A stretch of DNA of 27,483 nucleotides from a virus. The notes beneath the pieces are model-generated. The model was not told the DNA's origin and searched no databases. It saw only the letters and a list, made by a program, of their open reading frames with translations. Each line of letters starts with the position of its first letter. The first letter of the stretch is position 1. Below, one piece after another: positions 2-16,029 of this stretch. The stretch covers positions 1-27,483 of IMG/VR virus record IMGVR_UViG_3300032242_001999, one strand, 5' to 3'. A program made the position numbers and the translations under genes.

Positions 2-118
2 TATAAAATGGATGATACAATAGAGGCATATAGAAACTTTTATATTAAAGATAAAATAGGAATTAAAAATTTAGGATATAACAAATTAAACAATACACCA
101 GAATGGATAAAAAAATAA
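2..118 (+). CDS. small hypothetical protein, 3' end or complete short gene
   Basis: An open frame runs in from the left edge and stops at TAA 116-118. An ATG at 8 would give a 36-residue protein (MDDTIEAYRNFY... ending NTPEWIKK), but the frame is also open upstream of it, so this may be the C-terminus of a gene that begins before the window. It overlaps the start of the FAD gene by 16 bases in another frame, as expected for packed phage genes. I recognise no domain. It is rich in Lys, Asn and Ile and has no membrane segment. The reading as a real gene rests on its close packing with the next one. Confidence 0.4.
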   Translation, partial: YKMDDTIEAYRNFYIKDKIGIKNLGYNKLNNTPEWIKK

Positions 119-1413
119 TCATTGTAGGAGCAGGCGTTGCAGGCATTAATGCTGCAACTAAATTAGTAGATAACGGATACCCAGGAGAATTAATTACAAT
201 CATTGATAAAGGAAATGATCCGTATAATCGTCTACCAGAGGAAGTTATGTGTGGTTTCGCGGGAGCAGGCGCGTGGAGTGATGGCAAGCTAGTAGTATCA
301 ACAGTACAAGGTGGACAGTTGTCTAAGTATTGTGGTGAAGAAAAAGCTATGGAATTAATGAATGAAGTAGTAGCTAATTTTACTCGTTTTCATCCTAAAC
401 CAGAAGATATTTCATGTTCCGATCCTAAGGAAGAACCTGAATTTATTAAACCGTATTTCGACTTACGTATGTCACTTGTATGGCATATTGGTTCAAACTA
501 TTTACACGAGATTGCTAAAAATTGGTATCAATATTTGTTAAATAAAGGTATTACATTTATATGGAATACTGAAGTAACTTCTATTGATTTTAATCAAAAT
601 ACTATAACAGGAAAAGGAAAATTTGTAAGTCAACTTCCATTTACTTTTGAAGATACATACAATAAATTAATATTTGCAGTAGGTAAATCAGGTATTGATT
701 TCGCTCAAGAATTATCAGACGGATATAAATTACCAACTGAAGCTAAAGCAGTACAAATTGGTGTTCGATTTGAAGCTCCACAAAAATACTTCCAGAAATT
801 AATTGATGTATCTTATGATTTTAAGTTATATCAAAAACATGATAATATATCTATTCGCTCATTCTGTACTAACAATAATGCGGCTTATGTAGCGGTAGAG
901 GAAACATATGGTGACATTAGTTATAATGGTCACGCTAAGAAAGGTGAGGAATTTAGAAATGATATGACTAATTTTGGTATTTTAATGGAAATTAAGGGTA
1001 TTGAAGATCCATTTAAATGGAGTAGGGATGTAGTACAAAAATTACAATTTAATGGTACTGGTTTATACTATTCAACTAAACGTGTTAATTCTAAAACATC
1101 TGAAGGTGAGATTGTAAATGCATACCAAATTCATGAATTAAATGTATTTAAAGAGGCGTTAGGTGAATATGCTGATTATGTTTTAAACTTTATTGATGAC
1201 ATGAATAAAGTATTTGAATTTGGGAATGATTTTGGCATATACATACCCGAAGTTAAATATGCCGCTCCAGAACCTCTTACAAATCATAATGATATATCTT
1301 TAATAGAATACCCAAACGTACATTTTGCCGGAGATGCCCTCTCAGCACGAGGTATAACAGTAGCTGGAAGCCATGGAATATATATTGCTGAAAGTATTTT
1401 AAAGAAAATGTAA
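103..1413 (+). CDS. FAD-dependent dehydrogenase, COG2509-like
   Basis: A 436-residue protein starting with a dinucleotide-binding Rossmann motif, GAGVAG at residues 9-14 after a hydrophobic beta strand, as in FAD-binding oxidoreductases. A Cys-Gly-Phe-Ala-Gly-Ala-Gly-Ala-Trp-Ser-Asp-Gly-Lys stretch (residues 50-62) matches the glycine-rich signature of the poorly characterised COG2509 FAD-dependent dehydrogenases. The C-terminal GDALSARGITVAGSHGIY resembles the second FAD-contacting segment of that family. Substrate unknown; probably a cytoplasmic redox enzyme and an unusual auxiliary gene for a phage. The start at 103 places the nucleotide-binding motif at the usual distance from the N-terminus. 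There is no Shine-Dalgarno sequence. A diverged second copy of its last codons lies at 2179-2280, beyond the homing endonuclease, so its own 3' end may have been brought in with that element. Confidence 0.8.
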   Translation: MDKKIIIVGAGVAGINAATKLVDNGYPGELITIIDKGNDPYNRLPEEVMCGFAGAGAWSDGKLVVSTVQGGQLSKYCGEEKAMELMNEVVANFTRFHPKPEDISCSDPKEEPEFIKPYFDLRMSLVWHIGSNYLHEIAKNWYQYLLNKGITFIWNTEVTSIDFNQNTITGKGKFVSQLPFTFEDTYNKLIFAVGKSGIDFAQELSDGYKLPTEAKAVQIGVRFEAPQKYFQKLIDVSYDFKLYQKHDNISIRSFCTNNNAAYVAVEETYGDISYNGHAKKGEEFRNDMTNFGILMEIKGIEDPFKWSRDVVQKLQFNGTGLYYSTKRVNSKTSEGEIVNAYQIHELNVFKEALGEYADYVLNFIDDMNKVFEFGNDFGIYIPEVKYAAPEPLTNHNDISLIEYPNVHFAGDALSARGITVAGSHGIYIAESILKKM

Positions 1414-1423
1414 TTTTAATGTC

Positions 1424-1464
1424 AGGGACGTATATTTATACCAAATAACATAATATGCGTCCCT
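1424..1464 (+). promoter_or_regulatory. hairpin enclosing promoter motif and endonuclease start codon
   Basis: AGGGACG (1424-1430) is the exact reverse complement of CGTCCCT (1458-1464). The second arm covers codons 2-4 of the homing endonuclease, whose ATG is at 1455, and the loop contains the ATATTTATA motif (1432-1440). After one mismatch, three more pairs (ATA/TAT) can extend the stem. In a read-through transcript from upstream the stem would bury the start codon. A transcript begun downstream of the motif would lack the first arm and leave the start open. T4 I-TevI is known to be controlled by this kind of late-promoter-in-hairpin arrangement. Confidence 0.6.
1432..1440 (+). promoter_or_regulatory. 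ATATTTATA motif, candidate late promoter
   Basis: Exact copy of the repeated intergenic motif, 14 bases before the homing endonuclease ATG. It lies in the loop of the 1424-1464 hairpin. Promoter function is inferred from recurrence and position across the window. Confidence 0.5.
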
Positions 1465-2099
1465 ATATTTATTTGGTTAAAAACAAACAAGAAAAAGTAG
1501 TTTACATAGGGCAACAAATAGGGACTAAACTTATAAAAGAATATAAGGGTTCTGGTTTATTACTAAATAGAGCTTATGTGAAATACGGTGATGATTATTT
1601 TAAAAGAGAAATAATTGAATATTGTGATATAGATGAATTAAACAATAAAGAAAAATCATATATTAAAAAATATAACACTAAGTTTCCACATGGTTATAAT
1701 TTAACCGATGGTGGAGATGGGAATAAAGGATATCAATATAGTAACGATCAAAAACAAAATATATCTAATGCTAAAATGGGACAAAAATATCCAAAAGAAC
1801 ATGGTGAAAAAATAAGACAATCTAAATTAGGTAAAAAACGAGATCAAAATACAATAAATAAAATAATTCAAACAAAAGCCTCAAAACATAATATACAACC
1901 TGACTTAAATTTAAAAGGACAACACAGAAGTAATTCACAAAAAATAATCCTTCAATATGATCTTCAAGACAATCTACTAAACGAATACCAATCAGCACAA
2001 GAAGCAGGCCGATGTTTTAAAAAATCAGGAAATAGTATAGCAGATTGTGCTGCAGGTAAACAAAAAACAGCATATGGATTTAAATGGAAATATAAATAA
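1455..2099 (+). CDS. GIY-YIG homing endonuclease with NUMOD DNA-binding modules
   Basis: A 214-residue free-standing homing endonuclease. The N-terminal nuclease domain (about residues 1-90) shows the degenerate GIY motif (YIYLV) and a clear YIG (VVYIGQQ). It continues with YKGSG...LNRAYVKYG, a catalytic-type Glu in the NNKEKSYIKKYN helix, and GYNLTDGGDG, all typical of phage GIY-YIG enzymes. Residues about 95-140 carry two NUMOD3-like segments (NISNAKMGQKYP and KIRQSKLGKKRD). The C-terminus (about 160-214) resembles a NUMOD1/IENR1 repeat ending in AYGFKWKYK. It would cut a specific DNA site and spread by double-strand-break repair. It sits just after the FAD gene and is flanked by a duplicated 3' end of that gene, direct evidence of its mobility. 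Expression is probably limited by the hairpin at its start. Confidence 0.9.
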   Translation: MRPYIYLVKNKQEKVVYIGQQIGTKLIKEYKGSGLLLNRAYVKYGDDYFKREIIEYCDIDELNNKEKSYIKKYNTKFPHGYNLTDGGDGNKGYQYSNDQKQNISNAKMGQKYPKEHGEKIRQSKLGKKRDQNTINKIIQTKASKHNIQPDLNLKGQHRSNSQKIILQYDLQDNLLNEYQSAQEAGRCFKKSGNSIADCAAGKQKTAYGFKWKYK

Positions 2100-2116: not shown

Positions 2117-2178
2117 ATGTCAGAAACGAAAAAACTAAAAACAGCAGATGGAACAATAGCATACTATTGGGAAAACAA
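2117..2178 (+). pseudogene. orphan 5' fragment of a homologue of the 2306 gene
   Basis: The ATG at 2117 opens a frame reading MSETKKLKTADGTIAYYWEN and then Lys. It aligns with the start of the intact gene at 2306 (KRMKTIDGKIVYHLDGK), with about 8 identities in 20 and several conservative changes. The similarity ends near 2178, where sequence matching the 3' end of the FAD gene begins; the frame itself runs only to a stop at 2194. A truncated copy of a neighbour gene, probably carried in with the endonuclease and cut off at a non-homologous junction. Confidence 0.65.
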
Positions 2179-2280
2179 AATGTACACTTCGTAGGAGACG
2201 CTTTAAGTGCTCGTGGTATTACAGTATCAGGTGCGCACGGTATTTATGTAGCTGAAAGCTTAATTAACCCAAGTAAATAA
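2179..2280 (+). pseudogene. orphan 3' end of an FAD dehydrogenase gene
   Basis: Read from 2179, this encodes NVHFVGDALSARGITVSGAH and then GIYVAESLINPSK with a stop at 2278-2280. It matches the C-terminus of the 103-1413 protein (codons from 1315) at 23 of 29 aligned residues. Many codons differ at synonymous positions, so this is not a recent copy but comes from a related lineage. It has no start codon of its own. It is most simply the original 3' end of the recipient's FAD gene, displaced when the endonuclease and a donor 3' end were inserted upstream. Confidence 0.8.
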
Positions 2281-15275: not shown

Positions 15276-15308
15276 CTTTTACTTGACTAAAGAGTCAATA
15301 AATAAAAG

Positions 15309-15335
15309 GTCCGAGCGCAAGCTCGGACTTTTTTT
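15309..15335 (+). terminator. intrinsic terminator after the major capsid gene
   Basis: GTCCGAGC (15309-15316) pairs perfectly with GCTCGGAC (15321-15328) around a GCAA tetraloop and is followed by seven T. It ends the scaffold-capsid unit. A longer open frame from 15283 reads through it, which argues against that upstream start for PhoH. Confidence 0.95.
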
Positions 15336-15338
15336 ATC

Positions 15339-15347
15339 ATATTTATA
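15339..15347 (+). promoter_or_regulatory. ATATTTATA motif, candidate promoter of phoH
   Basis: Exact motif copy 4 bases after the terminator's T-run and 13 bases before the ATG at 15361. Confidence 0.55.
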
Positions 15348-15360
15348 TCAAACATTGTTT

Positions 15361-16029
15361 ATGAAGGAACCTAACCGTGAGCGTAAAACAGAAATTAAGT
15401 CTATAAGTGCTGTTCAATTAAATGAAGAGCAAAAAGAAGCAAAAAGATTAATAGTTGAAAATCAAATAGTGGTAATTACAGGTAGAGCAGGTAGTGGTAA
15501 ATCATTAGTATGTGCTCAAGCTGCATTAGATTTTTTAAAAAAGAAACAAATTAATTGTATATATAATACAAGAGCAGCGATTGAAGTTGGTAAAAGTTTA
15601 GGCTATTTACCAGGTGCTTTAAATGAGAAATTTGATCCATATATGGAAGCACTACTTGAAAATTTAGCTAAATGCTGCGCTGATAAAAACGAAGTACCTA
15701 AATTAGTACAGGACGAAAAAATTAAAGCATTACCTGTACAATTTATTAGAGGTAAAACTATAGACGACATACTAATTGTAGAAGAGGCTCAAAATTTAAC
15801 TAAAGGTGAAATGTTAGCTATATTAACTCGTTTAGGTAAAACCGGGAAAATCGTTATTAATGGCGACAATGAGCAAACAGATATCAAAAATCCAACAGGA
15901 GAAATAAATGGTTTAACGTACGCTATTGAATTGTCTAAGAAAATTAACGAAATTAAATGGATTAAATTAGCTACTAACCATCGCTCAGATTTAGTTGGTA
16001 AAATATTAGATTTTGAATATGGGAAATAA
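15361..16029 (+). CDS. phoH: PhoH-like ATPase
   Basis: A 222-residue P-loop ATPase of the PhoH family, related to the ATPase part of superfamily 1 helicases and common in aquatic phages. Features: LNEEQKEAKRLI, Walker A GRAGSGKS at residues 41-48, PVQFIRGKTIDDILIVEEAQ (Walker B plus sensor), and GKIVINGDNEQTD. The role in phages is unsettled; RNA metabolism and phosphate stress have been proposed. The open frame extends to an ATG at 15283, but that part is the terminator and promoter-like motif and translates to non-conserved sequence, so I place the start at 15361. It sits alone between capsid and neck genes with its own motif upstream and another after it. Confidence 0.92.
   Translation: MKEPNRERKTEIKSISAVQLNEEQKEAKRLIVENQIVVITGRAGSGKSLVCAQAALDFLKKKQINCIYNTRAAIEVGKSLGYLPGALNEKFDPYMEALLENLAKCCADKNEVPKLVQDEKIKALPVQFIRGKTIDDILIVEEAQNLTKGEMLAILTRLGKTGKIVINGDNEQTDIKNPTGEINGLTYAIELSKKINEIKWIKLATNHRSDLVGKILDFEYGK

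Follow-up and report, generated by a model that had tools for sequence, protein, structure and literature searches.

A hairpin that encloses a promoter-like motif and the start codon of a free-standing GIY-YIG homing endonuclease gene (HEG) probably serves that gene as a cis-acting promoter-in-hairpin translational switch, a reading that draws on sequence comparison and RNA folding. Read-through transcripts coming from the oxidoreductase gene upstream would hold both arms of the hairpin and form a helix of 13-18 bp, which would bury the start codon and codons 2-4 and allow little or no endonuclease to be made. Transcripts from the internal ATATTTATA promoter, with a predicted start at ~1444, would have no 5′ arm, and their 11-nt, A-rich, open leader would be translated. 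This promoter is probably of the phage late class and may be used by a gp55-like sigma factor, and endonuclease output would be limited to the phase in which it is active. We infer the promoter function, the transcription start, the repression and the timing of the switch; should long transcripts of the late phase run through the element as well, it would set start-site use and not timing.

The endonuclease gene and its hairpin

The window, meaning the whole stretch of DNA analysed here, is a 27.5-kb virus record (27,483 nt) and a fragment of a phage genome. Its genes include homologues of a T4-type terminase, portal, prohead protease and major head protein, in that order, and, judged by sequence, its source is a far-T4-like phage. 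A GenBank megablast with the window matched no close phage, the matches of its proteins to GenBank were all below 60% identity, and none of the cellular genomes searched was found to encode a close relative. The features around the HEG are as follows.

103..1413, + strand: FAD/NAD-type oxidoreductase gene (phrog_12409), upstream of the HEG, identified with Pfam Pyr_redox_2 and PHROG
1418..1422, + strand: outer stem arm AATGT, which pairs with ATATT in the RNA fold and is kept in most relatives
1424..1436, + strand: 5′ arm of the main hairpin, AGGGACGTATATT, from the fold and compensatory changes in relatives
1432..1440, + strand: promoter-like motif ATATTTATA, from its position before gene starts
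~1444, + strand: predicted transcription start (motif first base + 12)
1452..1464, + strand: 3′ arm AATATGCGTCCCT, covering the start codon, codons 2-3 and the first base of codon 4
1455..2099, + strand: HEG, free-standing GIY-YIG/NUMOD1, 214 aa, from NUMOD1, phrog_314 and GIY-YIG matches
1465..1469, + strand: outer stem arm ATATT, which pairs with AATGT, from the RNA fold and pair counts

The HEG begins 41 nt past the oxidoreductase stop codon on the same strand. Its product matches phrog_314 homing endonucleases (E 2.7e-33) and carries a C-terminal NUMOD1 with a score above the cut-off (E 1.2e-5); the GIY-YIG domain PF01541 falls below its curated cut-off (E 1e-4), and the YIYL...VYIG signature is present. 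The trace of homing is indirect, consisting of one site with present and absent alleles and a one-sided replacement. No intron is indicated around the gene, and an Rfam search of 1300-2400 at E values up to 1 matched no known RNA family.

The initial annotation had described a perfect 7-bp stem between AGGGACG (1424-1430) and CGTCCCT (1458-1464), with the motif (1432-1440) and the ATG (1455-1457) inside the hairpin. The complement and both placements are correct, but the extent was understated: the main stem AGGGACGTATATT/AATATGCGTCCCT runs to 13 bp, including one G-U, and pairs the ATG itself. Beyond a bulge, another 5 bp come from the outer AATGT/ATATT helix. The motif's first five bases sit in the 5′ arm, and the predicted transcription start lies 3′ of that arm, which ends at 1436. 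Since no Shine-Dalgarno sequence was seen before the HEG, the buried element would be the AUG itself.

The 41-nt element folds at -17.1 kcal/mol, compared to -4.4 +/- 2.1 kcal/mol for dinucleotide shuffles (z -6.15, with 0 of 200 as good). A stem this strong (12 bp or more, five or more G-C pairs, loop no longer than 40) is found at three places in the window and never in six mononucleotide shuffles. When the protein and the 5′ arm are held fixed, only 0.12% of usage-weighted synonymous choices for codons 2-5 occlude the start as well. Codon 3 is CCC, one of just two CCC among the 281 proline codons counted in the window. For a transcript from 1440, a second possible hairpin, ACCAAATAA/TTATTTGGT at 1440-1478, would also have the ATG inside it (-7 kcal/mol); this hairpin would be shortened if the transcript starts at 1444.

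The promoter-like motif and start-site occlusion

All ten copies of ATATTTATA in the window lie on the coding strand, and eight of them precede an ORF start by 12-32 nt. The relative L006 (113-kb record) has 25 of its 29 sense copies within 60 nt before a start, and L010 (163-kb record) has 29 of 36 there, compared to an expectation set by the 6-8% of the sequence that this zone occupies. Counted from the motif's first base, position +12 is an A in 85% of 138 non-identical motif genes, and position +13 is an A in 86%. In many genes the ATG follows that base by exactly 12 nt, and in none by 9-11 nt; in nine genes with the ATG at 8 nt the motif overlaps the ATG, and the start may be mis-called. 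From the conserved A and the edge in ATG spacing at 12 nt, we place the transcription start 12 nt after the motif's first base. If this prediction is right, mRNA would be leaderless for genes whose ATG lies exactly 12 nt from the motif, such as those at 2552 and 10616 of the window.

Among the large genes examined in the L010 record, the motif precedes the terminase, the portal and a tail-fibre-assembly-like gene (the terminase and portal being named by similarity to the window's genes) and is not directly upstream of the DNA polymerase, groEL or baseplate wedge genes. It stands just upstream of none of 63 oxidoreductase homologues. A candidate for a gp55-like late sigma factor is encoded at 147008-147715 of the G004 record (L028 7008-7718), and a homologue was found in all ten long relatives searched. 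Its profile match is weak but significant (phrog_234, E 3.8e-5; Sigma70_r2, E 3e-4), and direct BLASTP to gp55 is not significant (E 0.11). If this candidate is the factor, its promoter would be TATTTATA instead of the T4 late consensus TATAAATA, of which the window holds one copy, at the end of the HEG. The motif here thus differs from that of T4, as first proposed, and a literature search did not find TATTTATA as a phage late promoter. Because of its sense-strand, near-start placement, the initiating-A signature, the genes that bear it and the gp55-like sigma, we read ATATTTATA as a promoter, probably a late one, its timing being a prediction. Elsewhere in the window, a 13-bp stem lies at 15304-15333, between the major head gene and phoH, and the TTG start of ORF 15283 is doubtful because an ATG at 15361 has the motif at 15339.

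We scored start-site occlusion as a difference in opening energy: the cost of unfolding the start region in the long transcript minus the cost in a transcript begun past the motif. The region was taken as ATG -10 to +9, which understates stems that end before the ATG (L199/L200). In a first run on 108 motif-bearing genes, the short form started 15 nt from the motif's first base, and ranks 1-7 all went to the seven scored members of the window's HEG family, with differences of 12.0-18.0 kcal/mol. The window's own copy scored 14.7 kcal/mol in this run and 14.3 kcal/mol with motif + 12. Folding both transcript forms, a check suggested by the initial annotation, gave a long form that occludes the start and a short form that opens it, the cost falling from 15.5 kcal/mol to about 1 kcal/mol without the 5′ arm. 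For each of the seven HEG copies, 0 of 60 flank shuffles reached the long-transcript value. In an enlarged set of 264 genes, the HEGs had a median of 5.2 kcal/mol compared to 1.5 kcal/mol for other motif genes; without the window's HEG family the medians were 4.5 and 1.5 kcal/mol (P 1.6e-7), P values here being optimistic because related genes are treated as independent.

As a positive control we applied the metric to T4 with the T4 consensus and with the start window widened slightly. The genes segB, e, 49, I-TevII and I-TevI took ranks 1-5 of 59, and all five are reported to be under promoter-in-hairpin control (PMC2988022, PMC3014915). They span 10.3-16.0 kcal/mol, with segB at 16.0, and the value for the window's HEG falls inside this range. 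The metric missed T4 soc (rank 36 of 59) and is therefore not exhaustive; it can nonetheless be used to look for promoter-in-hairpin control in any phage genome. Taken together, the behavior of the motif, the predicted start, compensation in the stem and the T4 control make it a well-supported prediction that read-through mRNA would hide the start and mRNA begun after the motif would expose it, as had been suggested from the window's letters alone.

Conservation of the stem and alternative explanations

The same HEG occurs at the same place with the same stem in seven relatives (L002-L006, L013 and L014), its copies being mostly 76-88% identical in nucleotides. Across seven distinct leaders, 89% of cells are paired, compared to 32-60% when the partner is slid by 1-3 columns. 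One stem pair switches between A-U and G-C (four and three distinct rows), which by a parsimony count on the tree takes at least three events, and another changes from G-C to A-U in L005. The stem thus covaries at two pairs, with at least four coupled events. G-U pairs are tolerated among the relatives. A single mismatch interrupts the inner GC part of the main stem in L005 and likewise in L013, and the outer helix has a C.A mismatch in L013 and in L014. The compensatory changes that the initial annotation had advised looking for are therefore present, with modest statistical support: a shuffle control gave 14/500 for the score and 176/500 for the number of covarying pairs. Because this control is only moderately favourable, the covariation supports the stem and does not prove it.

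Other endonuclease genes have stems of their own. Another HEG type found at this site (L198/L009, L199/L008, L200 and L202) has a different stem enclosing the motif; it ends just before the ATG and has three doubly changed pairs in four sequences. L007, a GIY-YIG gene, has another promoter-enclosing stem, and an endonuclease-VII-like HNH gene in the record of L006 (G001, position 109459; L020 9459-10124) has its own different hairpin around the motif. Several other motif-bearing HEGs showed no such stem.

The inverted repeat could instead be a DNA operator, over which the endonuclease or some other protein binds at the promoter and represses it. I-TevI has an operator site that overlaps its promoter, as by similarity do I-TevII and I-TevIII (PMC2988022), and the repeat here overlaps the ATATTTATA motif. 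However, the leaders of the window's HEG family are no more like the target-like 3′ end of the neighbouring gene than shuffles are, the one borderline match, on the reverse strand, had a p of 0.046 among many tests, and tolerance of G-U pairs suits an RNA stem better than a DNA site. We consider an operator unlikely as the explanation of the repeat, although operator and RNA-switch functions are not exclusive and can coexist. Equally doubtful is the idea that the stem is a by-product, in which a constrained promoter flank chances to match a constrained coding start and is inherited by close copies. The small number of distinct sequences and the modest covariation statistics, taken alone, would allow this. 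Against it stand a codon choice in the top 0.12% of usage-weighted synonymous spellings, with its rare CCC, at least three coupled A-U/G-C exchanges among copies that are mostly 76-88% identical, the drop in paired cells from 89% to 32-60% on sliding the partner by 1-3 columns, and the different promoter-enclosing stems of the other HEG types (L009/L200/L202, L007 and the HNH gene in the L006 record).

Since the hairpin directly follows the oxidoreductase stop codon, it might also be taken for a terminator or an mRNA-stability element of that upstream gene. This seems very improbable to us: no T-run follows the stem and no terminator-like site was found, the HEG-less relatives of the oxidoreductase gene mostly do without the element, and the stem reaches into the coding part of the HEG and has a promoter-like motif inside it. 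We favor a promoter-in-hairpin switch for the HEG.

Insertion history and known parallels

Three further features lie downstream of the HEG.

2117..2178, + strand: truncated second copy of the small downstream gene, ~21 N-terminal codons long; it reads MSETKKLKTADGTIAYYWENK and resembles small-gene starts in HEG-less relatives
2179..2280, + strand: old oxidoreductase 3′ end, displaced (NVHFVGDALSARGITVSGAHGIYVAESLINPSK stop), grouping with HEG-less tails, best L039/L077/L040
2306..2536, + strand: intact small gene, 76 aa, which directly follows the oxidoreductase gene in many HEG-less relatives

The order in the window is thus new tail, HEG, 21-codon small-gene start, old tail (2179-2280) and intact small gene. 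In many HEG-less relatives a small gene of 76-84 aa begins ~1-30 nt after the oxidoreductase stop, usually without the motif. In a tree built from 32 codons of the oxidoreductase 3′ end, most HEG-linked tails cluster across HEG types (the exceptions being L007, L110, L201 and L202), the tail before the HEG in the window is of this HEG-linked type, and all five downstream remnants fall among HEG-less tails. The HEG apparently travels with a foreign oxidoreductase 3′ end, and the displaced old end survives downstream. From the gene order and the tail tree, the cassette seems to have entered through homology at its left side and through an illegitimate joint at its right, and in this way to have replaced the oxidoreductase 3′ end. 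The foreign 3′ end spans 1315-1413 in the window, with the old end at 2179-2280, and is also seen in L002, L010, L013 and L123; the truncated small-gene copy (2117-2178) marks the right-hand insertion joint.

It is possible, and we suggest it only tentatively, that a whole group of far-T4-like phages has interchangeable endonuclease cassettes at one site, several with their own promoter-in-hairpin, unlike in sequence but alike in logic, and a replacement 3′ end for the neighbouring gene. If so, a self-timing switch would have been made repeatedly, as part of the mobile unit.

An arrangement nearly the same as that of the window's HEG is already known for T4 segB, a free-standing GIY-YIG HEG with a predicted late promoter and a hairpin that sequesters the RBS (PMC2988022). 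Both are free-standing GIY-YIG genes, and in both the promoter is enclosed by a hairpin that would close off the start region when the transcript begins further upstream. The window's HEG differs from segB in its promoter sequence, in the burial of the AUG itself and in its insertion site, an oxidoreductase gene rather than a tRNA cluster. The likeness to T4 I-TevI that was drawn from the outset has a precedent, and that gene is among the top five of our T4 control: in I-TevI, I-TevII and I-TevIII, a hairpin sequesters the start in transcripts from upstream promoters, and mRNA from a nearby promoter escapes (PMC2988022, PMC3014915). Unlike the window's HEG, these three genes sit in group I introns, and control of I-TevI protects splicing. 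Aeromonas phage Aeh1 mobE is also a free-standing HEG with a hairpin-sequestered start region (PMC2988022), but it encodes an HNH enzyme at a ribonucleotide reductase gene, and there the effect of the hairpin was tested by experiment. T4 e and 49, ranks 2 and 3 in the control, follow the same promoter-in-hairpin logic (PMC3014915), although they are not mobile endonuclease genes.

The replacement of a neighbour's 3′ end has a parallel in fungal mitochondrial mobile ORFs (Allomyces atp6; Glomus atp6/atp9/cox2/nad3). In these, a new host-gene 3′ end arrives with the endonuclease and the native end is displaced downstream, as in the window's cassette (PMC3630166). Here the setting is a phage, and the passages on the fungal cases describe no promoter-in-hairpin layer (PMC3630166).

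The initial annotation had left the choice between convergent and retained control. The stems of the HEG types compared here are dissimilar in sequence, which fits a likeness to T4 by repeated origin. The T4-type trick would extend to distant uncultured phages, with a different late-type promoter and a buried start codon, and this hints that mobile endonucleases need promoter-in-hairpin control in general and that it is not a T4 peculiarity. Outside the endonucleases, the family MDNI.FSNDLFR.MVQAFKP (L085 4645, L104 2426, L113 2146 and L114 2249) has a strong promoter-in-hairpin of up to 14 kcal/mol, like T4 e.
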